Shown in pieces: positions 6,354 through 64,000 of a DNA stretch of 64,000 bases; within the stretch, counting starts at the first letter, position 1; each line of letters opens with the position of its first letter. The notes below the pieces were generated by a model, which saw nothing but the letters and a program-made list of their open reading frames with translations, was not told the DNA's origin and did no database searches. Source of the DNA: Agromyces mediolanus (GTDB taxonomy: Bacteria > Actinomycetota > Actinomycetes > Actinomycetales > Microbacteriaceae); contig NZ_BMRJ01000002.1 in assembly GCF_014648575.1 (NCBI RefSeq), positions 350,149-414,148 on the forward strand. Reading direction: 5' to 3'. Made by a program: the position numbers and the translations under genes.

Positions 6354-7121
6354 ATGGTGCAGCCTGGAATCGGCGAGCTCGGTGATCGCCGGGGAGCCGA
6401 ATCCTGGCGGCTTGTCGCCGAGATGCTCAGGAAGCGCATCGCGCTTGGTGGCATGGAACCGGGCTCGAAACTACCCACAGAACGCGAACTGTCAGCGATT
6501 CTCGGGGTCGGGCGGAACACGGTCCGGCGGGCAGTTCGCCAGCTCGCTCAGGACGGGCTCGTTGTCACCACGCTTGGACGCTCGGGCGGGACCCGCCTGG
6601 CGGATGGCGTTCGGCTGGGGGAAGTGAGCGTCGGCGAGCGCGCGGTCGTCGCCGCAGAGTTTCGGGCTGCGATCCGCGACTACATGGAGTACCGGATCAT
6701 CTTGGAGCCGGCCGTGGCGCGGCTGGCCGCGGAGCGCGGGCCGACTGCGGCGAGGCGTTCGCTGGTGGAGATGTTCGACGAGGAGATCGCGGACGACGCC
6801 GATTACCAGCGCATCGATACGCGTTTCCACTTCGCGATCGCGGAGGCCGCCGGCAACGAACCACTCCGGCGGGCCGTCGAGGACGCGCGTATGGAGATGT
6901 TCGTGCGTGGGAACGCTCTCTGGCTCGGAACCGAATGGTCACTCGTCTACCGCGAAGGAATCAGTGGGGCGCAGATCTTCGAGCACGAGCACCGCGCGCT
7001 CGCGCTGGCGATCCTGGCGGGAGACGGGGATGCGGCTGAGCGGCTGATGCGCGCCCACCTGGTCGAATCGCGTGACGAGTTCTATGCCCTCGTCTCGCAT
7101 TTTGAACGGCTCGGCGTCTGA
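6354..7121 (+). CDS. GntR family regulator, FadR/FCD subgroup
   Basis: Transcription factor of 255 residues. The winged-helix DNA-binding domain occupies roughly residues 15-80 (GSKLPTERELSAILGVGRN then TVRRAVRQLAQDGLV). An all-helical FCD ligand-binding domain follows, with the FH-x-AIAEAAGN motif that carries metal/acid-binding residues. ATG 6354 is chosen over GTG 6348 because GGAGG at 6343-6347 touches the GTG but is 6 bases from the ATG. It probably controls the divergent amidohydrolase and the downstream decarboxylase/transport genes, since both promoter regions share a motif. Confidence 0.88.
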   Translation: MVQPGIGELGDRRGAESWRLVAEMLRKRIALGGMEPGSKLPTERELSAILGVGRNTVRRAVRQLAQDGLVVTTLGRSGGTRLADGVRLGEVSVGERAVVAAEFRAAIRDYMEYRIILEPAVARLAAERGPTAARRSLVEMFDEEIADDADYQRIDTRFHFAIAEAAGNEPLRRAVEDARMEMFVRGNALWLGTEWSLVYREGISGAQIFEHEHRALALAILAGDGDAAERLMRAHLVESRDEFYALVSHFERLGV

Positions 7122-7211
7122 CGCATCGCATCGTCCCCTGAACCTCGAGTCGAACGATCGGTCGGCACGAATTCGGGCTTGACGCGCCCGGGCGATGGGT
7201 CGTAGCTTCCT

Positions 7212-7235
7212 ATTTGGGTTCGTATGGATCCAAAT
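7212..7235. promoter_or_regulatory. Candidate GntR operator, copy 2, upstream of the decarboxylase
   Basis: The segment has inverted ends ATTTGG and CCAAAT around a 12-base spacer and repeats the core of the copy at 6316-6339 (GGGT-C-CGT and GGATCCAAAT). It ends 17 bases before the decarboxylase start codon. This is a good candidate for repression of the decarboxylase/ABC operon by the adjacent GntR protein. Confidence 0.55.
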
Positions 7236-7252
7236 AAGACTCTGGAGATGAA

Positions 7253-8626
7253 GTGCACACGTCCGACCCCGCTCTGACCGATGTCGTCCTCGAGCACGTG
7301 CGCCGCCGCCTCGCCGCAGACCCTGCACCGCTGGGGCGCAGAGGCGACGCCCACGAACTCGCTGCAGGGCTGGACGGCGCGATCGGTGCGGAGCCGCTCG
7401 GCCTCGACGCAGCGATGCGCCTCTACGTCCAGCACATCGAACCGACGATCGCCTCGAGCCGCAGCCCCCGCTACCTTGCCTACATTCCGGCGGCGCCGAC
7501 GCCGGCAGCGACCGCCTTCGACATGCTCGTCTCCGCCTTCGCGCTGCACGGGGACGGATGGGAGGACTGCTCTGGAGCGATCGCCGCTGAGAACCAGGCG
7601 CTCCGAGTCATCGCCGACCGTGCAGGACTCCCGGCGGGGGCGGGCGGGTGCTTTGTCAGCGGTGGATCGGCTGGCAATCTCTCGGCGCTGGTGGTCGCTC
7701 GCGACAGCCGTCCTCCGGTGACCCGGCCCAGGATCGCCGTCACTGCCGAGACTCATTCCTCAGTCGCGAACACGCTGCGGATCATCGGGGTCGAGCCCTT
7801 CCTCGTGCCGGTCGAGGATCATCGGTTGACCGGAGCCGCGCTCCGCGCCGCACTCCTCGAGGACGAAGCGCCCGAGACAGTTATCGCCGTCGTAGCGACC
7901 GCCGGAACCACCAACGCCGGCATCATCGACGATCTCGAGGGGATCGCGGAGGTTGCGCGAGAACTCGGGATCTGGTTCCACATCGACGCCGCGTACGGGG
8001 GAGGTGCGTTGTTCTCGGATCGACTCCGGCCCGCGTTCGCCGGGATCGAGCATGCGGACGCCGTGGTCATCGACCCCCACAAATGGCTGTTCACTCCGTT
8101 CGACTGCGGCGCCGTTCTCTATCGGGACCCCGCCAAGGCGGCGGCGGTGCATACCCAGGAAGCGGAGTACCTCGGGAATCCGAACGCAGGCGAGTGGAAT
8201 CCGAGCGACTATGCCTATCACCTCACGCGTCGAGCGCGGGGCCTTCCGCTGTGGTTCTCTCTGGCGACCTACGGCATCGACGCATACGGGCGAGCTGTCG
8301 ACGCCGGCCGCGCCTTGGCGCTGGCGACGGCAGCGCTCATCGAAGCGAGCGACCAGCTCGAGCTCGTGCGCGAACCAGGGCTCTCGGTCGTACTGTTCCG
8401 ACGCCACGGTTGGGGACAGGGCGAATACGAAGCGTGGGGTGAGTTGCTGTTTGCCCGAGGACTCGCGTATGTCGCGCCGACGAAGTGGGAGGGGCGGCCA
8501 GTCGGAAGGCTGGTGTTCATCCATCCCGATCTCACCTTGGACGTGGTCCGCGAGATCCTCGCGACGCTCGAGGAGCCGACACCGACAGTTGCGCGCCGAG
8601 GGTCGCTCGCCCAGGTCGCTGAGTAG
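7253..8626 (+). CDS. PLP-dependent group II amino acid decarboxylase
   Basis: Predicted fold-type I enzyme of 457 residues, related to aromatic-L-amino-acid, tyrosine and glutamate decarboxylases, converting an amino acid to its amine. YIPAAPTPAA near 80 and FVSGGSAGNLSAL near 135 match the family. HIDAAYGG lies near 245, and the PLP-binding lysine is K277 in DPHKWLF. The GTG start follows GGAG at 7244-7247. It heads an apparent operon with the ABC importer, which suggests that the imported compound, or its hydrolysis product, is decarboxylated. Substrate unknown. Confidence 0.85.
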   Translation: MHTSDPALTDVVLEHVRRRLAADPAPLGRRGDAHELAAGLDGAIGAEPLGLDAAMRLYVQHIEPTIASSRSPRYLAYIPAAPTPAATAFDMLVSAFALHGDGWEDCSGAIAAENQALRVIADRAGLPAGAGGCFVSGGSAGNLSALVVARDSRPPVTRPRIAVTAETHSSVANTLRIIGVEPFLVPVEDHRLTGAALRAALLEDEAPETVIAVVATAGTTNAGIIDDLEGIAEVARELGIWFHIDAAYGGGALFSDRLRPAFAGIEHADAVVIDPHKWLFTPFDCGAVLYRDPAKAAAVHTQEAEYLGNPNAGEWNPSDYAYHLTRRARGLPLWFSLATYGIDAYGRAVDAGRALALATAALIEASDQLELVREPGLSVVLFRRHGWGQGEYEAWGELLFARGLAYVAPTKWEGRPVGRLVFIHPDLTLDVVREILATLEEPTPTVARRGSLAQVAE

Positions 8627-8662
8627 CGCGACCGACACAACGGTACGAAGGGTAGGAAACAC

Positions 8663-9835
8663 GTGACAATGGAGTCAGAGACGCGAACAGCCGCTGCGCC
8701 GCCGCAGGCAGACGCTGTCGGTGGGGTCGTACTGGACCGAGTGAGCAAACGATACGGCGGCCAGGCGGCGGTCGACGACCTTTCCCTTGAGATCAGGCCT
8801 GGGGAGTTCCTGTCGTTGCTCGGGCCATCCGGCTGCGGAAAGACGACAACACTACGGATGATCGCCGGATTCGAGCACCCGGATGCAGGAGATATTCGAA
8901 TCTCGGGGCGTTCGGTGATCGGCCAGGCTCCGTACCGCCGGGACGTGAACACCGTCTTCCAGGCATACGCGTTGTTTCCCCACATGACCGTCGCCCAGAA
9001 CGTCGCGTATGGATTGCACGAACGTCGGGTGGCTCGAGTCGAGCTGCGCGCGCGTGTCGCTGAAGCGCTGGCGATGGTGCAGATGCGCCGATTCGCGGAC
9101 CGGAAGCCGTCCCAGCTCTCCGGAGGTCAGCAGCAGCGGGTCGCCTTGGCAAGGGCGCTCGTGAACCGGCCCGCCGTTCTCCTTCTCGATGAGCCATTGG
9201 CTGCGCTCGACCGAAAGCTCCGCGAGGAGATGCAGCTCGAACTCAAACTCATTCAGGCGAAGCTCGGTCTCACGTTCGTCTTCGTGACGCATGACCAGGC
9301 CGAAGCGCTCTCCATGAGCGATCGGATCGCCGTCATGCGCGACGGACGGATCGAGCAGCTCGACGATGCCACCACGATTTATCGTGCGCCGGTGTCGGCC
9401 TATGTCGCATCGTTCGTCGGGCAGCAAAACTTCTTCAGCGGGGTCGTCTCCGCCGTGGGAGGCGAAGTGCAGACGTCGTATGGGCCGATCTCGACCGTGT
9501 CGACCGGGCTGAGCGTGGGCCAGCGAGTCAGAGCAGCGGTCCGACCAGAGTTCGTGGAGCTCGCAACGGGCTCGCCTCCCGGCGATACCAACCGGGTTGA
9601 GGGGCGGCTGATCGGTGTTTCGCACCTCGGTGAGGCCCAGCAGTACCTCGTTCAGCTCGGCCCGGAGCTGTCGGTGATCGCGAGAGTCGCGACGCCGCTC
9701 GCGCCGAAGCTCCAGATCGGCGAGTCAGTTTGGTGCAGTTGGCGAGCCGAGTCGGTGCAGCTGTTCCCTGACGACGAGCCGATTGCCACCGGGTCGTTGA
9801 GTGCCCCGACCACAACCGCAATCCCGGCGCAGTGA
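8663..9835 (+). CDS. ABC transporter ATPase, spermidine/putrescine (PotA) type
   Basis: Cytoplasmic ATP-binding subunit of 390 residues. Walker A is GPSGCGKTTT near residue 55, signature LSGGQQQRVALARAL near 155, and Walker B LLLDEPLAALD just after. A C-terminal TOBE-like regulatory domain runs from about 250 (VRPEFVEL). The family energises uptake of polyamines and related amines. It starts 36 bases after the decarboxylase gene. Either GTG 8663 or ATG 8669 could be used; both give nearly the same protein. Confidence 0.9.
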   Translation: MTMESETRTAAAPPQADAVGGVVLDRVSKRYGGQAAVDDLSLEIRPGEFLSLLGPSGCGKTTTLRMIAGFEHPDAGDIRISGRSVIGQAPYRRDVNTVFQAYALFPHMTVAQNVAYGLHERRVARVELRARVAEALAMVQMRRFADRKPSQLSGGQQQRVALARALVNRPAVLLLDEPLAALDRKLREEMQLELKLIQAKLGLTFVFVTHDQAEALSMSDRIAVMRDGRIEQLDDATTIYRAPVSAYVASFVGQQNFFSGVVSAVGGEVQTSYGPISTVSTGLSVGQRVRAAVRPEFVELATGSPPGDTNRVEGRLIGVSHLGEAQQYLVQLGPELSVIARVATPLAPKLQIGESVWCSWRAESVQLFPDDEPIATGSLSAPTTTAIPAQ

Positions 9836-9864
9836 AGCGCCCGACGAGATCCCGGAGAACCTCA

Positions 9865-11049
9865 ATGTCCGATCAACAGCCCATCCGAATCCTCGCGGAG
9901 CGCTCCGCCGTCCCCGGCGTTCTCCGCTCGCTTTCGCGTCGGCAACTGCTTTCGATGACCGCGATCGCCGCGGGCGGCCTGCTTCTCGCCGCCTGCAGCG
10001 ACGGTGGCAGGCCAAGCCCGGGCGCCGTTGCCCGGCCGACCGGAGGCCCGCTCGAAGACCAGCTCTCGATCTACAGCTGGGCGGACTACGACGACCCCGC
10101 GCTTCTCTCGGCCTTCACGAGCGCCAGCGGGCCGAAGATCATCGTCGACTCCTTCGGTTCGAACCCGGAGCTCGTCGCCAAGCTCACTGCCGCCAAGGGC
10201 ACGAGTGGATATGACGTCGTGGTGCCGAGCAGCAACTACATTCCGCAGATGGCTGCGAACGGCCTGCTGATGAAGCTCAACAAGGAGCTTCTGCCGAACT
10301 TGGCGCACATGGACACCCAATTCGCCGTGGAGTCGGATCCCGATTCCGAATACGCGATCTGCAAGGCCTGGGGCACCACCGGCTTCGTCTACGACACAAC
10401 GGTTATCAATCGGGAGCTCAAGACCTGGGGCGACTTCATGGACGCTGCGGCGAACGAGGCGAGCGGGAAGACGAGCGTGCTCGATGATCCTGGCGAGCTG
10501 CCAGGCATCTATTTCTGGGCGAACGGCATCCAGTGGGAGACGAACGACGAGGAGCACCTCGCGGCCGCAGAGGACTATCTCGTCAACACCCTCGCCAAGC
10601 ACGTGTCCGTGTTCGACTCGAATCCCGCGAATGGGACGATCCCGCAGAGCACTGCGGTGTTGATCCAGGCATGGAACGGCTCCGCCCGCCAGGGCATTAT
10701 GGCCTCGAGCACTCCGGAGAAGTGGAGGTGGGTGCTGGGTGCTCCGAACACCGAGATCTTCATGGACACGTGGGCGGTCAGCGCGACCGCACCCCACCCT
10801 GAGGCTTCGCACGCCTTCATCAATTTCATGCTGAAGCCGGAGAGCCAGCTCGCGAACGTCGCCTACATGGGCTCGCATACAGGCGGGGCCGGTATCGAAG
10901 AGCTCGCGCGTGCGGAGGGCCTTCCGTATCTCGACATGATCTTCTACACGCCCGAACAGGTTGCGACGATGCAGCCGAGCACCACTACCGAGGGCATCGC
11001 CCGGCGCGTCGACATCTACAACAAGATGAAGGCCGCCGCCAGTGCGTAG
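9865..11049 (+). CDS. ABC transporter substrate-binding lipoprotein, PotD type
   Basis: Extracellular solute-binding protein of 394 residues. The N-terminus has a twin-arginine-like stretch (SRRQLLS, R25-R26) and a lipobox LLLAAC with C44, so it is a predicted lipoprotein, possibly Tat-exported. The mature part (LSIYSWADYDDPALL, then VPSSNYIPQMAANGLL) is typical of polyamine-type binding proteins. ATG 9865 is preferred over GTG 9832 because GGAG sits 7 bases upstream of it. Its stop overlaps the first permease gene. Confidence 0.9.
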   Translation: MSDQQPIRILAERSAVPGVLRSLSRRQLLSMTAIAAGGLLLAACSDGGRPSPGAVARPTGGPLEDQLSIYSWADYDDPALLSAFTSASGPKIIVDSFGSNPELVAKLTAAKGTSGYDVVVPSSNYIPQMAANGLLMKLNKELLPNLAHMDTQFAVESDPDSEYAICKAWGTTGFVYDTTVINRELKTWGDFMDAAANEASGKTSVLDDPGELPGIYFWANGIQWETNDEEHLAAAEDYLVNTLAKHVSVFDSNPANGTIPQSTAVLIQAWNGSARQGIMASSTPEKWRWVLGAPNTEIFMDTWAVSATAPHPEASHAFINFMLKPESQLANVAYMGSHTGGAGIEELARAEGLPYLDMIFYTPEQVATMQPSTTTEGIARRVDIYNKMKAAASA

Positions 11050-11932: not shown

Positions 11933-12852
11933 CGGCACGGGAAATGGCTCGCTCAACGGGAGTGCCCGCCGCGGCGAGCGCTGCGAGGCCCGGTCCGGCC
12001 GTGCACCGGCACCGCACGCCGATTAGGCACCGCCTGTTGTTGGCCTGGAGCCTCGTCGGCTTCGCCTTCCTGTTCGCGCCGATCGTCGTGATCGTGGCGT
12101 ACTCGTTCAACACGGGTCGGTTGCTGGTCTCGTTCGAAGACTTCGGAATCGAGAGTTATCTCGCCCTCTTCCAGAAGCAAGTGCTCAGCGACGCTGTCTC
12201 TGTATCGCTGCGGGCGGCAGGTCTCTCGTCACTGATCGCATCCGGCCTCGGGACACTCGCCGGCATCGCGCTGGCGAGGAGGCCCGGCGGCTGGACCGTC
12301 TGGTTCGTCGGGATTCTGCTTCTCGTGGCGGTGACGCCCAGCATCGTCGGTGCGGTCGCTCTGCTTCCATGGTTCGTATTCCTGGGGCAGGATCTCGGGT
12401 TCGGGGTCTTCAATGACGGCATCGCACGGCTAACGATCGGGAGCTCTTTGTTCTCCGTGGCGGTCGTGGCCTATTTGGTCAGGGCGCGTCTCATCGGCAT
12501 GCAGGCCAACCTGGAGGAGGCTGCCGCGGATCTCTACTCGACACCGTTGCGGACGCTGCGAAGAGTAACGTTGCCACTCGCGATGCCGGCTATCCTCTCC
12601 GGCTTTCTGCTTTCCTTCACCTTCAGCCTGGACGACACGATCGTGGCCGCGTTCGTCCAGGTGTCTGGCACCACCCCATGGCCCGTATATGTGCTGAGCG
12701 CGCTTCGCAGCGGGTTGCGGCCGGAGATCGCCGCTCTCTCGACGGGAATGCTCTTGCTGACCCTGTTTGCGCTTCTGGTCGTGGCGATCATTCTGAAGCG
12801 GGCCGGTGATTCCACGGCCGACATTGCGAAGACGATGGCTGGAGGTTCGTAG
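11929..12852 (+). CDS. ABC transporter permease, PotC type
   Basis: Second membrane subunit, 307 residues with about six hydrophobic segments after a charged, proline-rich N-terminus. The EAA loop is EEAAADLYSTPLRTLRRVTL near residue 195. It completes a four-part importer (ATPase, binding protein, two permeases). A strong hairpin just downstream marks the end of the operon. Confidence 0.9.
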   Translation: MTAREMARSTGVPAAASAARPGPAVHRHRTPIRHRLLLAWSLVGFAFLFAPIVVIVAYSFNTGRLLVSFEDFGIESYLALFQKQVLSDAVSVSLRAAGLSSLIASGLGTLAGIALARRPGGWTVWFVGILLLVAVTPSIVGAVALLPWFVFLGQDLGFGVFNDGIARLTIGSSLFSVAVVAYLVRARLIGMQANLEEAAADLYSTPLRTLRRVTLPLAMPAILSGFLLSFTFSLDDTIVAAFVQVSGTTPWPVYVLSALRSGLRPEIAALSTGMLLLTLFALLVVAIILKRAGDSTADIAKTMAGGS

Positions 12853-55408: not shown

Positions 55409-57380
55409 CCCGGGTGCCGCGGGCGCTGCGCCCGAGGCATCCGAGCACCGGCGGAGCCCCGCGAGCGAGTTCGCCGTGGCCCTCATCGCCGAGCTCGAAC
55501 GGCTCGGCGTGCGCGACGTGGTCGTCGCCCCCGGATCCCGCTCCCAGGCGCTCGCGATCGCGGCCGCCGAGTTCGAGCGCGCGGGCCGGCTGCGGCTGCA
55601 CGTGCGCATCGACGAGCGCAGCGCGGGCTTCCTCGCGCTCGGCCTCGGCGTCGAGTCGGGGCATCCCGCCGCGGTCGTCGCCACCTCGGGCACGGCCGTC
55701 GCGAACCTGCACCCCGCGGTGCTCGAGGCGCACCACGCCGGGGTACCGCTGCTCGTGCTCGCCGCCGACCGGCCGGCGGAGCTCCGCGGCATCCGCTCGA
55801 ACCAGACCACCATGCAGCCCGGCATCTTCGCCGGAGCGGTGCGCCTCGAGCGCGACGTCTCCGCGCCCGAGGGCGCACCCGGCGAGACCGAGACGGCCGC
55901 CGAGCTCGCGCGGCTCGCGGTCGCCGCGGCGGAGGGACGGGATGGCACGGGCGAGCCGGTGCCGCACCCCGGTCCCGGCCCCGTGCTGCTGAACCTGCAG
56001 CTGCGCGAGCCGCTGTCGGCGGTGGCGGCGCTACCGCCCGCCCCCGGCGAGCCGGTGCCGCCGGTGTCGCCCGGTGCTGGTGGCCCTGTCCCTGGCGGGC
56101 AGGCGGGAGCGCTCGCCCGCGGACCGCGCACGGTCGTGGTCGCCGGTGCCGGCGCGGGTGCCGCCGCCGAGGCGCTCGCCCGCGCGGGCGGCTGGCCGCT
56201 CATCGCCGAGATCACGAGCGGCGCCCGCTTCGGGCCGAACCTCGTGCCCGCCTACCGCGAGGTGCTCGCCGAGCCCGGCCTCGGCGACGCCGTCGAGCGG
56301 CTCATCGTCTTCGGGCACCCGACGCTGTCCCGGGAGCTGCCCGCGCTCGTGCAGCGCGAGGGCGTCGAGACCGTCGTCGTCGCGCCGAGCGGCGTCGAGT
56401 GGTTCAACCCCGGCCACCGGGCCCGGCGTTTCGAGCGCGCCGTGCACGTCGAACCCGGTGCGCCGGCCGAGGGGGAGCGCGCCTGGCTCGGTCGCTGGCT
56501 GCAGACGGGCCGGGCGCTGGCCGCCGCGAGCGCGCCCGCCGAGCCGGACGCCGTCCGCACGGGCGTCGACGAGACCGGCCACGTCACCGACTTCGCCGCG
56601 CAGCGGGCCTTCCTCGACGCGCAGCTCGGCCGCATGCGCGAGCCCGTCGGCCGTCGCCTGCTCGCCGAGTCGGTGTGGGCGGCGAGCTGGCCGCACGACC
56701 GGCTCGTGCTCGGGGCGTCCCGGCTCATCCGCGACGCCGACCGCGTCGTGCCCGGGCGCCGCATCCACGCGCACGCCAACCGCGGGCTCTCCGGCATCGA
56801 CGGCACCGTCGCGACGGCGCTCGGCATCGCGATCGCCAGTCAGGAGCCGGCCGCGGCCGGCGGGCCGGCGGAGGCGGAGGCGGTGGTCGAGGCATCCGCC
56901 GCTCCGGCGCCGGCCGCGTCCGACGGCTTCGACCCGTCCGCCGGCGACGACCTCGCCGCCATGCTCGCCCGCGCCGCCGAGGTCGAGCAGCAGCTCGCCG
57001 AGGCGAAGGCCGGCCGCGCCGCCCAGGAGGCCCGCGCCCGCGCCGAGTCGAGCGTGACCCGGGTGCTGCTCGGCGACCTCACCCTGCTGCACGACGTCGG
57101 CTCGCTGCTGCTCGGGGCGGGGGAGACCCGGCCGCGGATCCTCGTCGTCGTCGGCAACGACGGCGGCGGCACGATCTTCGACTCGCTCGAGGTCGCCGCC
57201 TCCGCGCCCGCCGAGGCGTTCGACCGCGTGCAGTACACCCCGCAGTCGGTCGACCTCGAGGCCCTCGCCCGCGCCTACGGCTGGCGGTACCGGCGGGCCG
57301 CCGTCCGCTCGGAGCTCGAGGCCGCGCTCGGCGAGGCCGTGACCGAGCCCACCATCCTCGAGGTCCCGCTCTGCCGCTGA
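55401..57380 (+). CDS. menD: SEPHCHC synthase (MenD) with an internal insertion
   Basis: Thiamine-diphosphate enzyme of 659 residues that makes SEPHCHC from isochorismate and 2-oxoglutarate; most MenD proteins are about 550-590. [15 protein letters not shown] near 33 and [17 protein letters not shown] near 67 are N-terminal signatures. The ThDP-binding part is [17 protein letters not shown] near 460-476 with [15 protein letters not shown] near 554. Between these, residues about 480-550 form an extra Ala/Glu-rich, coiled-coil-like insert. An Ala/Pro/Gly-rich segment near 215-235 also adds length. Confidence 0.93.
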
Positions 57381-57439
57381 GGAGCGGGGCGGGCCCCTGC
57401 TCTGCCCCGGGCCCGCACGCTCACTGCCCGGCCCCCGGC

Positions 57440-57508
57440 GGAGGAGATTCGCGCGTCTGGAGGTCGGGTTCGGGGGTCTGATCCTCCCGCGATGCGAATC
57501 GCCTCCCC
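57440..57508. repeat. Intergenic hairpin element, copy A
   Basis: Outer arms GGAGGAGATTCGC (57440-57452) and GCGAATCGCCTCC (57494-57506) pair with one mismatch, with an inner GGAGG/CCTCC stem. The right half (ATCCTCCCGCGATGCGAATC) recurs in similar form at 63615-63634. It follows menD. Confidence 0.65.
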
Positions 57509-57553
57509 TCAGGGACGCCGGCGTGAGGCTGGCCGAACCGGCAATGGTCACTG

Positions 57554-57579
57554 TTTGCACAGTCAAGATTGAATATGCT
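57554..57579. promoter_or_regulatory. Shared regulatory motif upstream of the ABC importer operon
   Basis: Blocks TTTGCA, TCAA, TG, ATA and GCT occur at offsets 0, 9, 16, 19 and 23, the same spacing as in the PadR/reductase intergenic region at 62586-62611. The surroundings are AT-rich for this genome, as expected for a promoter/operator. CTAATT 17 bases after TTGCAC may be the -10. Confidence 0.5.
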
Positions 57580-57622
57580 AATTTCATCGAGCCATCAACG
57601 ACGAACGGCCGAAGGGAACGAC

Positions 57623-58735
57623 ATGGACGTGTTTTCTCGGAGCGGTTCCCGGCGGGCCCTTCCCGCCGCGATCGCCGCCATCGCCCTCATCACCGTGCTG
57701 GGCGGCTGCGCCCAGCAGGGCGCGGACGCACAGCCCGCATCCGGTGACACCGAGGTGCTCATCGACGACGCGGCGTGCCAGCGCAACCGCGACGCGGGCA
57801 CGATCACCTACATCTCGGGCTACGGCTACTCGGCGAGCGCCGGCCAGCTCGACGTCTTCCTCGCGAAGGAGCGGGGCTACTTCGACGCGCTCTGCCTCGA
57901 CGTCGAGATCAACGCCTCCGGTGCGAACGGCCAGCAGCTCGTGGCATCCGGCCAGGCGCAGTTCACCGCCCTCGGCTCGGCGTCCGACGTCATGCTCGCC
58001 GCGGCGAACAGCAAGAACCTCACGGCGATCGCCACCTACGGCGACACCTCGCCGTTCTCGATCTTCGCCAACGAGCAGATCACGAGCCTCAAGGATCTCG
58101 AGGGCAAGAAGCTCGGCTACTTCATCAACCTCACGCCCGTGGCCTCGGCGATGCTGGACGCCGCCGGCGTCGACGTCTCGAAGGTCGAGCTCATCAAGAT
58201 GACCAACTACGACCCGACCGTGGTGACCCGCGGTCAGGTCGACGCGATCGTCGGATACGCCTCGAACCAGCCCGAGAAGCTCCGCTCGCTCGACCTGCCG
58301 TTCACCGAGTTCCTGCCCGCCGACTCCGGGGTGGGCGGCACCTACAACGTGATGGAGGTGAACTCGGCGTTCCTCGCCGAGCACCGCGAGGTCGCCGCCG
58401 ACTTCATGCGGGCGAGCCTCAAGGCGCTGCAGGAGTGCCTCGACGACGAGGCCGCCTGCGTCGAGGAGATCAGTGCGCTCGCCGAGGCGAACAATCAGGG
58501 TTCGGCGTTCCCGGTCGACCAGCAGGAGCGCACCTGGCGCGTCGAGTCGAGCTGGGTCCGCGACAGCGCGAGCGGGATGCCGGGTGTGCTCAGCGAGGCG
58601 GCCTGGGAGTCCGAGTACGCCCTGGTCCAGGAGTACGGCGGGCTGAAGGACCTGCCGCCGCTCGCCGACATGATGGACACCGAGCTCGTGGCCTCGCTGT
58701 ACCAGGACGGCGCACTCGTCTGGCCGGGCGAATGA
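57623..58735 (+). CDS. ABC transporter substrate-binding lipoprotein, NMT1/THI5-like (RibY-like candidate)
   Basis: Solute-binding protein of 370 residues with a signal peptide and lipobox LGGC (C29). ITYISGYGYSASAGQLDVFLAKERGYF near 55-80 is the NMT1/SsuA-type opening, and GKKLGYFINLTPVASAMLDAAG near 170-190 the second lobe. Such proteins bind pyrimidines, sulfonates or, in RibXY systems, riboflavin. ATG 57623 is preferred because AAGGGA is 5 bases upstream. It heads an importer-monooxygenase operon. Confidence 0.87.
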   Translation: MDVFSRSGSRRALPAAIAAIALITVLGGCAQQGADAQPASGDTEVLIDDAACQRNRDAGTITYISGYGYSASAGQLDVFLAKERGYFDALCLDVEINASGANGQQLVASGQAQFTALGSASDVMLAAANSKNLTAIATYGDTSPFSIFANEQITSLKDLEGKKLGYFINLTPVASAMLDAAGVDVSKVELIKMTNYDPTVVTRGQVDAIVGYASNQPEKLRSLDLPFTEFLPADSGVGGTYNVMEVNSAFLAEHREVAADFMRASLKALQECLDDEAACVEEISALAEANNQGSAFPVDQQERTWRVESSWVRDSASGMPGVLSEAAWESEYALVQEYGGLKDLPPLADMMDTELVASLYQDGALVWPGE

Positions 58736-59532
58736 GCGCCGCCGTGGTCGACGCCGGAGTCCGGGTCAGCAACGTCTCGAAGTCGTTCGGCGCCGACGGC
58801 GCGCGCGTGAAGGTGCTCGACGACGTCAGCCTCACGATCGGGATGGGGGAGTTCGTCTCCGTCATCGGGCCGTCGGGGTGCGGCAAATCCACGCTCCTGA
58901 AGGTCGTCGCCGGGCTCATCGACGCCGACGGCGGCAAGGTCGAGATCGACGGGTCGACCGTGCGCGCGGCGGCCGCAGATAAGCGCATCGGGCTCGTGCC
59001 GCAGTCGCCGGCCCTGCTGCCGTGGCGCACGGTGCTCGACAACGTGCGGCTGCCGCTCACCGTGAACCGGCGGGCCAACGCCGGCCGAGCCATCCGCGAT
59101 CCGAAGGAACTGCTCGCCTCGTTCGGGCTCGGCCACGCGATGCAGAAGTACCCGGGTCAGCTCTCGGGCGGCATGCAGCAGCGCGCCGCGATCGCCAGGG
59201 CCTTCGTCTTCGACCCGGCCATCATGCTGATGGACGAGCCGTTCTCCGCGCTCGACGAGATGAACCGCGATCAGCAGCGGCTCGGGCTCCTGGAGTTCTG
59301 GCAGTCGAACCGCAAGGCCGTGCTCTTCGTGACGCACTCCGTGCCCGAGGCGATCATGCTCTCCGACCGGATCGTCGTGATGGCCGCCCACCCCGGTCGC
59401 ATCGACCGGATCATCGACGTCGACCTCCCGCGCCCCCGCACCGAGGAGGCGTACGCGAGCGACGAGTTCCGCGAACTGGAGCGGGTGGTGCGCACCGCCC
59501 TGCACGAAGTGATGGGTGGAGCCCATGTCTGA
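58732..59532 (+). CDS. ABC transporter ATPase, SsuB/TauB type
   Basis: ATP-binding subunit of 266 residues. Walker A GPSGCGKSTLL is near 43, the Q-loop LVPQSPALLPWRTVLDNV near 85-102, signature LSGGMQQRAAIARAF near 143 and Walker B MLMDEPFSALDEM near 164. It is coupled to the binding-protein gene by an ATGA overlap and to the permease by a short overlap. Confidence 0.92.
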   Translation: MSAAVVDAGVRVSNVSKSFGADGARVKVLDDVSLTIGMGEFVSVIGPSGCGKSTLLKVVAGLIDADGGKVEIDGSTVRAAAADKRIGLVPQSPALLPWRTVLDNVRLPLTVNRRANAGRAIRDPKELLASFGLGHAMQKYPGQLSGGMQQRAAIARAFVFDPAIMLMDEPFSALDEMNRDQQRLGLLEFWQSNRKAVLFVTHSVPEAIMLSDRIVVMAAHPGRIDRIIDVDLPRPRTEEAYASDEFRELERVVRTALHEVMGGAHV

Positions 59533-60391
59533 GACCAGCACGATCGATGCGACCGCCTCGATGGCGGCCGCCGAGCTCGCCGATCGCCGCACTCGGCGCG
59601 ATGCGCCGAGTGCGCGCCGAGCACCCGCGTGGCTCCGGCCGAGGGTATGGCTGCCGACGGCGATCACCTTCGCCGTCGCCGCCTTCCTCTGGCAGGTCGT
59701 GGCGATCACGAACCCGTACGTCATCCCGACGCTCGACGCGATCGGGGCGAGCCTTGCCGGCGACCCGGCGATGTACTGGGCGAACTTCCTGGTGACCCTC
59801 CAAGAAGTCGTGATCGGCGCGGCGAGCGGCATCGTCGCCGGCTTCCTGCTCGCCGTGGTGATGGCCGAGTTCCGCCTGATCGAACGCGCCGTGATGCCGC
59901 TCGTGGTGGTCGTCATGGTGACCCCGATCGTCGCGATCGCCCCGGCCCTCGTCGTGGCGTTCGGCTTCGGGATGATGCCGAAGTACATCGTGACCGCGCT
60001 CGTCGTGTTCTTCCCGATGCTGGTGAACTCGCTCGCGGGGCTCCGGGACGTCGACGTGAAGGCGCTCGACGTCTTCCGCACCCTGCATGCGAGCAAGTGG
60101 GAGATCTTCCGCGACCTCCGCTTCCCGGGCTGCATGCCGTACGTCTTCGCGGGCCTGCGCATCGCCCTGCCCCTCGCGGTGGTGGGCGCGGCGGTCGCGG
60201 AGTTCGTCGCGGCCGGCCAGCAGGCCGGTCTCGGCTCGCTCGTCACCACCTCGGCCGCGCAGGCGAACCTGCCGGTCACCTGGGCGAGCATCGCCCTGCT
60301 CTGCGTCATGGGCGTGCTGCTCGTCTCGCTCCTCGCCGTGGTGCGCAAGCGCGTGCTCTGGTGGAGCGACGGCGAGGTCGTCGCGCGCTGA
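59525..60391 (+). CDS. ABC transporter permease, SsuC type (RibX-like candidate)
   Basis: Membrane subunit of 288 residues with a charged N-terminal stretch and about six helices. The ATPase-coupling loop reads DVKALDVFRTLHASKWEIF near 178-196 and FPGCMPYVFAGLRIALPLA follows, both typical of the SsuC/TauC/RibX group. GTG 59516 is an alternative start. It completes a three-gene importer. Confidence 0.9.
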   Translation: MSETSTIDATASMAAAELADRRTRRDAPSARRAPAWLRPRVWLPTAITFAVAAFLWQVVAITNPYVIPTLDAIGASLAGDPAMYWANFLVTLQEVVIGAASGIVAGFLLAVVMAEFRLIERAVMPLVVVVMVTPIVAIAPALVVAFGFGMMPKYIVTALVVFFPMLVNSLAGLRDVDVKALDVFRTLHASKWEIFRDLRFPGCMPYVFAGLRIALPLAVVGAAVAEFVAAGQQAGLGSLVTTSAAQANLPVTWASIALLCVMGVLLVSLLAVVRKRVLWWSDGEVVAR

Positions 60392-60463
60392 TCCGCACCG
60401 GCGTCGACGGGGCGCCAGGACCCGCCGGCCGCGATGGCCGGACCCATCGAGAAGGAGGAACTG

Positions 60464-61828
60464 ATGAGACGACTGCGCTTCGGACTCTTCGAGAACGCCC
60501 AGGCGAACGACTCGGGCACGGCGACCTGGCGGCATCCCGACAACCAGCGGGTGCGCTTCGACGAACTCGCGTACTGGCGCGATCTCGCGCGACTCTGCGA
60601 GGACGCGCGGCTCGACTTCCTCTTCCTGGCGGATGCCTGGGGCTGGGCCGATGTGAACGGCGAACGGCCCGAGATCTGCTCGGTCGAGGGACTGGACCTG
60701 CCGCGGTTGGATCCGGCGGTCGTCGCCGCCGCGCTGATGTCGCAGACCGAGCAGCTCGGTCTGGTGATGACCGGATCGATCCTGACGGAGCAGCCGTACG
60801 CCTTCGCGAGGCGGATGGCCAGCCTCGACCAGCTCTCGGGCGGACGCATCGGCTGGAACGTCGTGACGACCGGCACTGCGGAGACGGCGGTGCAGGCGTT
60901 CGGCGTGCCGATGGTCGCCCACGACGAGCGCTACCGGATGGCCGACGACTTCATGGAGCTCGTCTACAAGCTCTGGGAGGGAGCCTGGGAGCCGGACGCG
61001 CTCGTGAAGGACAAGGCGGGCGTCTTCGCCGACCCGTCGAAGGTGCACCGCATCGCGCACGAGGGGCCGTACTTCCGCTCGCACGGCTACGGCAACACCG
61101 CGTACTCGCCGCAGGGCACCCCGGTGCTCTTCCAGGCCGGTGCGTCACCTGCGGGGCGGGCGTTCGGCGGCAAGCACGGCGAGTGCATGTTCATCGGCGC
61201 GGGCTCGGTCGCCCAGCTGGCCGAGCACACGCGGGCCATCCGCGCCGAGGCGGTCGCCTCCGGCCGCCCGGCAGATGCGGTCAAGATCATGTCGGCGTTC
61301 GCGTGCGTCGTGGGCAAGACGACCACCGACGCGCAGCGGAAGTACCAGCGGGTGCTCGACGCGCAGAGTCCGGAGGTGGCGGTCGCCTCCTACGCATGGT
61401 TCACCGGGCTCGACCTCTCCTCGTACGAGCCGGACACGCCCATGACGGAGCTGCACACGGAGCTCTCGCAGACACAGGTCGCACGGTTCGCGGGGCTCAC
61501 GGTGGGTGACGTGCTGAAGGACTGGCATGCGCACGGCGTCGGTGCGAAGCCGGTCGTCGGCACGCCGGAGGAGATCGCCGACCGCATGTGCGAGCTCGCC
61601 GAGGGCGCCGATCTCGACGGGTTCCTGCTGTCTCCGGTGATCCAGCCCGGTTCGACGCAGGACTTCGTCGAGCACGTGCTGCCGATCCTCCGTGAGCGCG
61701 GCGTCGCCGGGACGGAGTACGAGGGGGCGACGCTTCGCGAGCGGCTCCTCGGCACCGGCTCCGCGACGTTGCCGGCGGAGCATCCCGCCGCGGCGCACCG
61801 CCCGGCTGCGCTGCGCCGCGCGGCCTGA
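60464..61828 (+). CDS. NtaA/SnaA/DszA-type flavin-dependent monooxygenase, candidate riboflavin lyase
   Basis: Luciferase-like (TIM-barrel) FMNH2-dependent oxygenase of 454 residues. FGLFENAQANDSGTATW opens the barrel; RMASLDQLSGGRIGWNVVT near 122-140 is the family hallmark, and MADDFMELVYKLWEG near 158 follows. A perfect AAGGAGG lies 5 bases before the ATG. The class includes nitrilotriacetate and dibenzothiophene-sulfone monooxygenases and RcaE, the riboflavin lyase of Microbacterium. A nearby flavin reductase and dedicated riboflavin kinase favour the last, as inference. Confidence 0.9.
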   Translation: MRRLRFGLFENAQANDSGTATWRHPDNQRVRFDELAYWRDLARLCEDARLDFLFLADAWGWADVNGERPEICSVEGLDLPRLDPAVVAAALMSQTEQLGLVMTGSILTEQPYAFARRMASLDQLSGGRIGWNVVTTGTAETAVQAFGVPMVAHDERYRMADDFMELVYKLWEGAWEPDALVKDKAGVFADPSKVHRIAHEGPYFRSHGYGNTAYSPQGTPVLFQAGASPAGRAFGGKHGECMFIGAGSVAQLAEHTRAIRAEAVASGRPADAVKIMSAFACVVGKTTTDAQRKYQRVLDAQSPEVAVASYAWFTGLDLSSYEPDTPMTELHTELSQTQVARFAGLTVGDVLKDWHAHGVGAKPVVGTPEEIADRMCELAEGADLDGFLLSPVIQPGSTQDFVEHVLPILRERGVAGTEYEGATLRERLLGTGSATLPAEHPAAAHRPAALRRAA

Positions 61829-61845
61829 TCGGGTCGGGCTGCGCG

Positions 61846-61876
61846 GGCGCGGGACCGTTCGGGTCGGTCCCGCGCC
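61846..61876. terminator. Bidirectional hairpin terminator after the monooxygenase
   Basis: Perfect 11-base arms GGCGCGGGACC and GGTCCCGCGCC around a 9-base loop, between the convergent monooxygenase and PadR genes. A second hairpin (TCGCCCG...CGGGCGA) follows at about 61879-61905. Confidence 0.75.
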
Positions 61877-61954
61877 GGGTCGCCCGTCTTCGACGAAGGC
61901 GGGCGATCCGGCCGTCCGGCTGGATGCCGCGACAGTACCGCTGCCCGCGCACGG

Positions 61955-62554
61955 TCAGCGCCGGGGTCGCTCCTCGCGGGGGTCGTCCGCGAAGGCGTAC
62001 TCGCCCTGCTTGAGTCGCTCGGCGAGCGAGCGCGCCCATTCCTGCTCGGCCCGGAGCCGCGCCGTCGACAGCTCGAAGATCTCGCGCACGTACTTCGGCG
62101 TCGTCTCCGAGCGTGCGGTGTCTTCGATGTGGAAGCCGTTGGTGAGCACGATCGCGTCGATCTTGGAGATGCGGTGCTCGAGGCCGGCGATGACCTCCTG
62201 CCGGCTCAGGATGAACATGAACGAGGCGATCACCATGACTGCCTGCGTGTCGAACGGCTCGACGTTCCACAGCGTGTCGCGCAGCATCCGCATGAGCTCG
62301 ACCTCGCCGGCCGGTGTGATCGTGTAGCTCGTGCGAGCCGGTCGCTTGCCGTCGGACTCCGTGCCGCTCTCGCGTACGTAGCCGTCCTGCTCGAGCGAGC
62401 GGAGCGCGTTGTAGATCGAGCCGGGCTGGATGTTGGCCCACTCGTCCACGAGCCAGGTCATCAGCTCGCGACGGAGGAAGTAGCCGTGCACGGGTTGGAA
62501 CTGGTGCACCGCGCCGAGCACGACGAGACGTGTTGGTGACGACATGCCTCCCAT
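61955..62554 (-). CDS. PadR family transcriptional regulator
   Basis: Regulator of 199 residues (196 if ATG 62545 is used; a GGGAGG lies between the two candidates but too close to the second). The winged helix fills the first 85 residues (LVVLGAVHQFQPVHGYFLRREL, PGSIYNALRSLEQDGYVRE, TSYTITPAGEVEL). A long helical C-terminal domain makes it a larger PadR subtype. Divergent from the flavin reductase, it probably controls that gene and the importer operon through the motif they share. Confidence 0.88.
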   Translation of the reverse strand: MGGMSSPTRLVVLGAVHQFQPVHGYFLRRELMTWLVDEWANIQPGSIYNALRSLEQDGYVRESGTESDGKRPARTSYTITPAGEVELMRMLRDTLWNVEPFDTQAVMVIASFMFILSRQEVIAGLEHRISKIDAIVLTNGFHIEDTARSETTPKYVREIFELSTARLRAEQEWARSLAERLKQGEYAFADDPREERPRR

Positions 62555-62585
62555 CGTAGACAGGCGGACTCCAGATTCCGCTTGT

Positions 62586-62611
62586 TTTGCATGATCAAAT
62601 CTGCATAAGCT
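62586..62611. promoter_or_regulatory. Shared regulatory motif between padR-type and flavin reductase genes
   Basis: Same block spacing as at 57554-57579 (TTTGCA, TCAA, TG, ATA, GCT at 0, 9, 16, 19, 23). Here TGATCA and two TGCAT copies add local symmetry. Candidate PadR operator. Confidence 0.5.
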
Positions 62612-62676
62612 CTTCCCAGATAGACAAACTTGACTAACCGGGGCGCTCAATGGGCGTCCGGAGAGCGGAGTCGACG

Positions 62677-63180
62677 ATGACCACCCAGCAGTCCCTGAGC
62701 GAGGCCCCGCAGCTGGCGCTGCGCCGGGCGTTCTCGGCCTTCCCGACCGGCGTCGTCGCCCTCGCCGCGATCGTCGACGGCGCGCCGGCCGGTATGGCGG
62801 TGAACTCCTTCACCTCGATCTCGCTCGAGCCCCCACTGGTCGCGGTGAGCGTCGCGCGCACGTCCACCACCTGGCCGCTGCTGGCCGATCGCCCGGCGCT
62901 CGGCCTCAGCGTGCTCGGCTCGGACCAGGAGGCGCTCTGCCGCCAACTCTCCTCGCGCACGGCCGACCGCTTCGCCGAGGCCGGCTGGCGGGTCGGTGAA
63001 GACGGGTCGGTGCTCGTCGAGGGGGCCGCGCTGTGGCTCGAGTGCGGTATCCACGCCGTGTACGACGGCGGCGACCACGAGATCGTGCTGCTCGAAGTGC
63101 GCAGCTCCGAGATGTTCCCCGAGGTCGCGCCCCTCGTGTTCCACCAGAGCCGCTTCCATGCCCTCGGCAACGCCGGCTGA
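62677..63180 (+). CDS. Flavin reductase (NADH:FMN oxidoreductase-like)
   Basis: Flavin-binding split-barrel protein of 167 residues. FSAFPTGVVALAAIVDGAPAGMAVNSF near 19-45 is the FMN-binding opening, SLEPPLVAVSVARTSTTWPLL near 49-69 follows, and HEIVLLEVRSSE closes the fold. It would supply reduced flavin to the neighbouring monooxygenase. ATG 62677 is chosen because GCGGAG is 6 bases upstream. It overlaps the next gene by 23 bases. Confidence 0.9.
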   Translation: MTTQQSLSEAPQLALRRAFSAFPTGVVALAAIVDGAPAGMAVNSFTSISLEPPLVAVSVARTSTTWPLLADRPALGLSVLGSDQEALCRQLSSRTADRFAEAGWRVGEDGSVLVEGAALWLECGIHAVYDGGDHEIVLLEVRSSEMFPEVAPLVFHQSRFHALGNAG

Positions 63181-63565
63181 CGCATCCTTCGCCGGCATCG
63201 TCGTGGGAGGGCACGGGCGCGGGCGCGTGCTCGGATTCCCGACCGCGAACGTGGAGGTCGCCGAAGGAGAGGCGCCGCCGGTCGACGGCGTCTACGCCTG
63301 CTGGATCCGCTTCCCGCCCTCCGAGGTGCGCCATGGCGGCACGGTGAGCGTCGGCGACAACCCCACGTTCGACGACGTCTTCGACCGCCGGGTCGAGGCG
63401 TACGTGCACGATCTCGACGAGAACCTCTACGGCCGGGCGATCACCGTGGAACCGGTCGCGATGCTCCGCGAGATGCGCCGCTTCGACACACTCGGGGAGC
63501 TCATCGCGCGCACGGAGCACGATGTGCGCCGTTCGCGCGCGGTCCTCGCCCGACTCGATCCGTGA
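63158..63565 (+). CDS. Stand-alone riboflavin kinase domain protein
   Basis: Protein of 135 residues corresponding only to the C-terminal riboflavin kinase half of RibF, with no FAD synthetase domain. GGHGRGRVLGFPTANVEV near 17-34 holds the G-FPTAN nucleotide-binding motif. VSVGDNPTFDDVFDRRVEAYVHD near 63-85 and ENLYGRAITVE near 88 follow. It would phosphorylate riboflavin to FMN. The 23-base overlap with the reductase gene indicates coupled synthesis, matching the kinase-reductase pair (rcaA, rcaB) of riboflavin degraders. Confidence 0.9.
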   Translation: MPSATPADASFAGIVVGGHGRGRVLGFPTANVEVAEGEAPPVDGVYACWIRFPPSEVRHGGTVSVGDNPTFDDVFDRRVEAYVHDLDENLYGRAITVEPVAMLREMRRFDTLGELIARTEHDVRRSRAVLARLDP

Positions 63566-63590
63566 GCACCGCGGGAGGGGACGCGTGCGC

Positions 63591-63640
63591 AGGGAGGGCG
63601 GAGTCGGGGTTTTCATCCTCCCTCGGTGCGAATCCCGCCC
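63591..63640. repeat. Intergenic hairpin element, copy B
   Basis: AGGGAGG (63591-63597) pairs with CCTCCCT (63617-63623). The stretch ATCCTCCCTCGGTGCGAATC resembles copy A at 57481-57500 (17 of 20 positions identical). The two copies flank the importer/monooxygenase locus. Confidence 0.55.
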
Positions 63641-63699
63641 GCTCGCGCCATGATGGAGCCCACGCGGCATCCGCCGCCGACGCGCACAGGGGGAACCGA

Positions 63700-64000
63700 A
63701 TGGACCGCGAATCGTTCTGGACGGCGGACCCCGCCGAGCTGCTCCGCGTCGGCCCGGGCTTCCGCCTCGCCGACGTCGACACGAACGCGCACCCGGGCTT
63801 CGACGGCGACAAGGTCGCGGGCCAGGCCGCGCTCGCCGAGGGCGCCGCCGTGCTGAACCGCCTGCAGGAGCAGCTCTTCGCGAACAACGTCGTGAACGGC
63901 GACGAGCGGCGGGTGCTGCTCGTGCTGCAGGCGATGGACTCCGCCGGCAAGGGCGGCATCGTGAACCACGTCATGGGCGCCGTGGATCCGCAGGGCGTGC
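63700..64000 (+). CDS. Polyphosphate kinase 2 family protein, 5' part only
   Basis: First 100 residues of a PPK2-family protein, cut by the window edge. FRLADVDTNAHPGFDGDK leads into the helical N-terminus, and the Walker A-type motif is LQAMDSAGKGGIVNHVMGAV near 79-98. PPK2 enzymes transfer phosphate between polyphosphate and nucleotides. A GGGGGAA stretch precedes the ATG. Confidence 0.88.
   Translation, partial: MDRESFWTADPAELLRVGPGFRLADVDTNAHPGFDGDKVAGQAALAEGAAVLNRLQEQLFANNVVNGDERRVLLVLQAMDSAGKGGIVNHVMGAVDPQGV

Follow-up and report, generated by a model that had tools for sequence, protein, structure and literature searches.

The end of a 64,000-nucleotide stretch of Agromyces mediolanus DNA (contig NZ_BMRJ01000002.1, positions 350,149 to 414,148; hereafter the window) carries a seven-gene rca-type locus, at 57623-63565, which we read, with a probability of about 0.8, as a riboflavin scavenging locus: it would import riboflavin, cleave it to lumichrome and ribose, and be controlled by a PadR repressor through a palindrome shared by its promoters. 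What carries this reading? The genes, the membership of the oxygenase in the RcaE family, the conserved linkage of the genes, the shared palindrome and the insertion site were all computed. By its gene content the locus is an rca cluster in the broad sense, with rcaE, flavin reductase and PadR genes together and the gene for a kinase-only riboflavin kinase next to that for the reductase; going by the same content, it lies outside the strict five-gene rcaABCDE form, because rcaD is absent. The gene set recurs in two phyla and is therefore not a chance array. An earlier reading of the same DNA from its letters alone (the sequence-only reading) had placed the seven genes and named their families, and gene calls and Pfam scans agree with it on both.

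Database matches and phylogeny identify the oxygenase as an RcaE-type riboflavin monooxygenase. Compared with all solved structures, it aligns best with 5w48, "Riboflavin Lyase" (807 bits, residues 1-447), and second best with a dimethyl-sulfide monooxygenase (334 bits). It also passes the NtaA/DmoA family cut-off (439 versus 280 bits), in line with its earlier description as an NtaA/SnaA/DszA-type enzyme. A tree was built from 56 rows, five of them outgroup; the other 51 were the window, 5w48, two plasmid loci and 47 loci of a scan that had found 49 (L046 and L050 were excluded as too short). These 51 ingroup rows form one group with an SH-aLRT support of 98, in a quick search without bootstraps in which several outgroup branches are long. 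The grouping of the oxygenase had been proposed as a check on the sequence-only reading: the window protein falls with 5w48 and the proteins of Devosia riboflavina (L012) and Microbacterium maritypicum (L020), which occupy other branches of the same RcaE group, and apart from all the outgroup oxygenases, the dimethyl-sulfide enzyme among them. It pairs with the A. soli protein (99), beside that of Nocardioides astragali (94). Identity reaches 97% with A. soli, 73% with M. maritypicum and 71% with D. riboflavina, and 32 positions that are invariant across 50 RcaE rows are absent from four outgroup proteins. The proposal that the locus cleaves riboflavin to lumichrome is supported by the RcaE match and the tree; at the level of the family, degradation of riboflavin to lumichrome is close to certain.

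RcaE is rare in the bacterial family of the host, being present in 15 of 398 sampled genomes at E <= 1e-130; in the class, it was detected in 3 of 394 sampled genomes at E <= 1e-100, two of these matches being only 42% identical. The scan, which used one genome per species and may miss records very near the window genome, yielded 49 rcaE loci in actinobacteria (Agromyces, Leifsonia, Microbacterium, Nocardioides, Demequina, Salinibacterium and Ruicaihuangia) and alphaproteobacteria (Devosia, Maritalea and Pelagibacterium). In the tree, the Devosiaceae rows split into two sets among the actinobacterial rows, a pattern that fits transfer between phyla. Three further loci of the same bacterial family (L072, L073 and L075) place paralogous ABC transporters, with substrate-binding proteins (SBPs) 37-39% identical, beside luciferase-type oxygenases that are 26-39% identical to RcaE.

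Does the importer belong to the same pathway? The sequence-only reading held that the locus carries a transporter "unlike the described cluster", and here it fails at the sequence level: the genes for the SBP, ATPase and permease adjoin rcaE in all 49 scan loci, and the same three genes directly precede rcaE in M. maritypicum MF109 and D. riboflavina. A transporter peculiar to the window locus was thus rejected. In 50 loci, the median spacing is -4 bp between the SBP and ATPase genes, -8 bp between the ATPase and permease genes, and 56 bp between the permease gene and rcaE. In the family sample, an SBP gene lies about 3 kb from rcaE in each of the 15 RcaE genomes, its product being no less than 63% identical; one genome without RcaE (G724) encodes an SBP at 76% identity, and in another 28 genomes the SBPs reach no more than 41% (E <= 1e-40). 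The importer is present in one of the two plasmid loci, that of Maritalea (L066), where the whole set is found, including genes annotated as ribokinase and riboflavin kinase. On this plasmid, a gene annotated as fructose-6-phosphate aldolase (11937-12590) lies 3' of the riboflavin kinase gene. RcaE and transporter distances correlate (Spearman 0.83-0.85, 48 rows), as shared descent alone could also bring about. Because its genes are linked to rcaE, the ABC transporter is likely to import riboflavin, and the earlier claim of riboflavin import finds its support in the same linkage.

A set of 21 RcaE-linked SBPs, that of the window and those of 20 of the 49 loci, picked for spread, has 127 invariant positions, and 41 of them are absent from five paralogues of 36-40% identity. 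The window gene starts with ATG, and its hydrophobic leader ends in LGGC, judged by eye to be a lipobox. A structural model of the protein (mean pLDDT 87.7) has its nearest solved folds in ThiY (3ix1), the thiamin-bound 4nmy and Thi5, with the pyrroloquinoline quinone (PQQ)-binding PqqT lower in the list. The model is compatible with a riboflavin ligand and is no proof of one.

How might these genes be switched? A comparison of promoters brought out the palindrome TAGTCAA-NN-TTGACTA in both promoters of the locus, one ahead of the SBP gene and the other in the padR-reductase interval. The window contains two matches at <=3 mismatches (57560-57575 and 62621-62636), versus 0.07 expected. Across the whole genome, where only sites at <=2 mismatches are informative because at <=3 mismatches a reversed control pattern gives 16 matches per strand and the palindrome 10, the two window sites have 2 and 1 mismatches and a single other site, C9:422, has 2. 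The first window site lies 47 bp before the start codon of the SBP gene, next to what appears by eye to be a -10-like TATGCT. Sites at <=2 mismatches precede the SBP gene in 48 of 52 upstream regions, versus 1 of 2080 first-order Markov controls, and sites at <=1 mismatch lie in 41 of 47 padR-reductase regions, versus 0 of 1880 such controls; these counts come from the same promoters from which the consensus was derived, and they are not independent because many of the loci are from closely related Microbacterium. We relied on the Markov control, as the pieces of a random-piece control could contain the second site (13 of 2064 at 0 mismatches). In 18 other genomes (18 of the 49, picked for spread), 32 sites were found at <=1 mismatch, versus 4 per strand for the reversed pattern, and 31 of them fall inside rca loci, the exception being G780:C181:8056.

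Of the 49 loci, 47 encode a PadR relative; the remaining two are truncated. Since nearly all sites of the other genomes lie inside rca loci, and a Streptomyces plasmid stretch with rcaE but no PadR (L065) has no site better than 4 mismatches, PadR is probably the owner of the palindrome, which would make the latter its operator, and the rca locus is probably its only target. Control by PadR through the palindrome is likely. The window padR probably corresponds to rcaC, a name that we assign by inference. What would release such a repressor? According to excerpts of PMC4534193, riboflavin is bound in the pore of LmrR, another PadR protein, whose DNA binding then becomes 2- to 4-fold weaker; this precedent makes a flavin ligand plausible for the window PadR by analogy. 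Control of the locus by an FMN (flavin mononucleotide) riboswitch was rejected, as neither this nor any other Rfam family is found at the gathering score in 54-64 kb of the window and the single FMN riboswitch of the genome precedes the riboflavin synthesis genes.

The nearest solved relatives of the reductase are the flavin reductases 4ywn and 3pft. The kinase protein corresponds in alignment to the RibF kinase module (5a88) and has no match to FAD_syn in Pfam, as expected from its earlier description as a kinase-only RibF. The single FAD_syn match of the genome is on contig C3, in a gene for a full RibF with both domains. The ribD, riboflavin synthase, ribBA and ribH genes lie behind the FMN riboswitch, on contig C6, and with these synthesis genes of its own the bacterium should not need external riboflavin as a vitamin. 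A PfkB-type rcaD is present at 36 of the 49 loci; it usually stands between rcaE and padR and sometimes downstream. Eight of the 13 loci without it are those of A. soli, two Leifsonia, four Devosia and Ruicaihuangia (L005, L007, L008, L010, L011, L013, L019 and L051); in the other five (L016, L017, L026, L046 and L050), the contig runs out inside the cluster or close to it. On contig C2, the PfkB gene found closest to the window locus is about 31 kb away, and two ribokinase-like genes elsewhere in the genome, at C4:47736 (273 bits) and C2:779798 (239 bits), both score under the curated cut-off of 299.65.

Taken as a pathway, the locus would work as follows. A lipoprotein-dependent ABC importer would take up external riboflavin, part of which RcaA would convert to FMN. 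RcaB would reduce the FMN, and RcaE, using reduced FMN and O2, would oxidize C1' of a second riboflavin molecule to give lumichrome and ribose, a reaction that we adopt from published work on relatives (excerpts of PMC12746152). The ribose would enter carbon use by way of a ribokinase whose gene lies at another place in the genome, and the lumichrome would exit as a waste product or a signal. PadR would sit on the palindrome common to both promoters until released by a flavin (riboflavin or lumichrome). For the substrate of the importer, the ownership of the palindrome by PadR, the PadR ligand and the ribose route, we infer rather than compute. The excerpts of PMC12746152 state that M. maritypicum grows on the ribose and that the lumichrome precipitates; the authors report no strain in which rcaE and lumichrome-degrading genes are colocalized, and lumichrome is proposed there as a signal. 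The known riboflavin degradation pathway requires oxygen and has been reported from Actinomycetota and Devosia, according to excerpts of PMC12934955.

Several observations weigh against this scheme. The cluster has no rcaD: three RcaD queries found nothing better than E = 1.2 in the 19 kb around the locus, and the sequence-only reading had noted no ribokinase gene in the window. The kinase gene is absent in two of the 49 loci (L041 and L051) though the contig continues. Operator 1 differs from the consensus in 2 of its 14 positions. The importer can also occur apart from the lyase: G724 has PadR and the three importer genes (L068 7589-10828; permease 70%) with no rcaE, reductase or kinase gene, and no close palindrome precedes its SBP gene (best 7 mismatches in the 200 bp taken). 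Nor is the importer strictly required, since the linear 1.5-Mb Streptomyces plasmid of L065 carries, at 7059-10291, a ribokinase-like gene (matches in two frames), rcaE, the reductase and the kinase gene in this order, with no importer or PadR match within about 7 kb on either side. Finally, the nearest solved relatives of the SBP bind thiamin or its precursors.

Could the enzymes degrade riboflavin while the importer carries a thiamin precursor, a pathway product or some other heterocycle? The thiamin-type folds closest to the SBP, together with the G724 importer lacking a lyase and the L065 lyase lacking an importer, would suit this explanation; we nevertheless think it unlikely, given that importer genes stand beside rcaE in every scan locus of two phyla, that the same palindrome precedes the importer genes and the reductase and kinase genes, and that the RcaE-linked SBPs share invariant positions absent from their paralogues. 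Salvage is a second alternative, in which import and kinase would supply FMN and RcaE would be silent or merely limit excess. Importer and kinase alone would form such a route, and G724 holds the importer without the lyase, but the genome synthesizes its own riboflavin and has a full RibF, and rcaE follows the permease gene by 72 bp on the same strand, which makes salvage highly improbable. That the oxygenase acts instead on a sulfonate, sulfone, aminopolycarboxylate or other NtaA/DmoA-family substrate, beside a kinase and a reductase present by coincidence, is scarcely credible: the broad family cut-off is passed and loci pairing ABC transporters with more distant oxygenases occur in the same bacterial family, yet the score against riboflavin lyase is 807 bits versus at most 334 for other solved oxygenases, the tree places the protein with RcaE, and a riboflavin kinase gene lies in the same locus. 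An identity as a sulfonate or nitrilotriacetate oxygenase was rejected on the 5w48 match and the tree. Riboflavin scavenging thus remains our preferred reading of the locus.

The insertion site was examined as well. The cluster, in the interval 57380-63700 of the window, is flanked by menD (NCBIfam menD, 315 bits, cut-off 244) and a polyphosphate kinase 2 gene (ppk2; Pfam PPK2). A search with the MenD end matched 39 of 41 same-genus genomes; among the best 14 of these 39 loci, which were examined, menD is followed by the SBP gene in three (the window, L086 and L088) and directly by ppk2 in 11. The cluster occupies the menD-ppk2 site in A. soli (L005) and A. kandeliae (L006), which are probably the same genomes as L086 and L088. 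The closest cluster-free relative (G810, MenD 95% identical) has a short intergenic stretch there, the right part of which matches the window from about 63637 to ppk2. This pattern agrees either with a gain of the cluster at a single place, followed by loss, or with several gains there. On both sides, at 57482-57500 and 63616-63634, the cluster is enclosed by copies of an imperfect palindromic element (core TCCTCCCNCGRTGCGAATC) in direct orientation, and similar copies enclose it in A. soli. A role as mobile-element ends is unsupported, as the A. kandeliae locus has none at <=3 mismatches and the genome holds six copies at <=2 mismatches. The folding of the repeats is at most weakly better than that of shuffled sequences (z 0.06 and -1.5), and they may be terminators or a REP-like repeat.

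The features of the locus are listed below. The first four genes form a plus-strand run with overlaps of 4 bp and 8 bp and then a gap of 72 bp; beyond the oppositely oriented padR, the ends of the reductase and kinase genes overlap. Between the convergent rcaE and padR, a GC-rich hairpin found by eye at 61850-61880 (GCGCGGGACCG-N7-CGGTCCCGCGC) is probably a terminator.

Table. Features of the rca-type locus of A. mediolanus, in window coordinates
Feature	Position	Strand	Basis or remark
Predicted PadR operator 1, CAGTCAAGATTGAATA	57560..57575	.	2 mismatches to TAGTCAANNTTGACTA
Substrate-binding lipoprotein (SBP), NMT1/THI5 fold, predicted riboflavin binder	57623..58735	+	Pfam NMT1 120 bits
ABC transporter ATPase	58732..59532	+	ABC_tran 113 bits; 4 bp overlap with SBP gene
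ABC transporter permease	59525..60391	+	BPD_transp_1 94 bits
rcaE, FMN-dependent riboflavin monooxygenase (riboflavin lyase), 454 residues	60464..61828	+	Bac_luciferase 142 bits; 5w48 807 bits; tree
PadR-family repressor	61955..62545	-	PadR 52 bits
Predicted PadR operator 2, TAGACAAACTTGACTA, between padR and reductase gene	62621..62636	.	1 mismatch; best site of the genome
rcaB, flavin reductase, expected source of reduced FMN	62677..63180	+	Flavin_Reduct 123 bits
rcaA, riboflavin kinase without FAD synthetase domain	63158..63565	+	Flavokinase 108 bits

How does the locus compare with known systems? For the rca cluster of M. maritypicum, a 2016 abstract reportedly names RcaA as the kinase, RcaB as the reductase, RcaD as the ribokinase and RcaE as the lyase. 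The window and that cluster agree in the order of their genes for RcaE, PadR, the reductase and the kinase-only RibF. Strain MF109 also shares with the window the ABC genes directly before rcaE and has the palindrome without mismatch in both promoters; unlike the window, it places a ribokinase gene between rcaE and padR. D. riboflavina IFO13584 has the same seven genes, with the palindrome at 1 mismatch in both promoters, and differs from the window in a divergent ribokinase gene downstream of the kinase gene. In pairing an NMT1-type binding protein with a permease, the importer resembles RibXY of Chloroflexus aurantiacus, a likeness drawn from its description and not from the RibY sequence. 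Excerpts of PMC4418817 describe RibXY as a COG0715-type binding protein and a permease, whose transport activity was shown in an E. coli auxotroph that they complemented. RibXY orthologues are called there by their FMN riboswitch, whereas the window promoter holds the palindrome and no riboswitch; we do not file the window importer as RibXY, though by analogy it may work like one. The window regulator belongs to the PadR family, as does LmrR; unlike it, LmrR controls a drug exporter, and none of the 6 PDB matches to the window PadR (E <= 0.01) is named LmrR.

What does the locus add to these systems? The degradation enzymes were already known; what it adds is the conserved importer and the operator. 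In PMC12746152, the words transporter and PadR are absent, and "uptake" occurs once, on lumichrome genes. A literature search combining riboflavin catabolism, ABC transporter and Microbacterium returned no paper, the 2016 and 2018 primary papers lying outside its scope, and a search combining lumichrome, Devosia, transporter and riboflavin returned only PMC12934955, whose excerpted transporter passages deal with other systems such as RibU. The route by which riboflavin enters degraders and the switching of their genes therefore seem open in the literature searched.

We lean towards a wider view of the locus as a self-contained, horizontally spreading vitamin B2 capture module, in which a dedicated riboflavin ABC importer and the RcaE enzymes would answer to one flavin-sensing PadR at a private operator, TAGTCAA-NN-TTGACTA. 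If this is true, a bacterium that makes its own riboflavin strips vitamin B2 from its surroundings and releases lumichrome, through an importer regulated differently from FMN-riboswitch importers. Possible uses include a lumichrome-producing module and a flavin biosensor. The conserved importer and the specific operator make both the entry of the vitamin and the control of the genes testable in soil bacteria.

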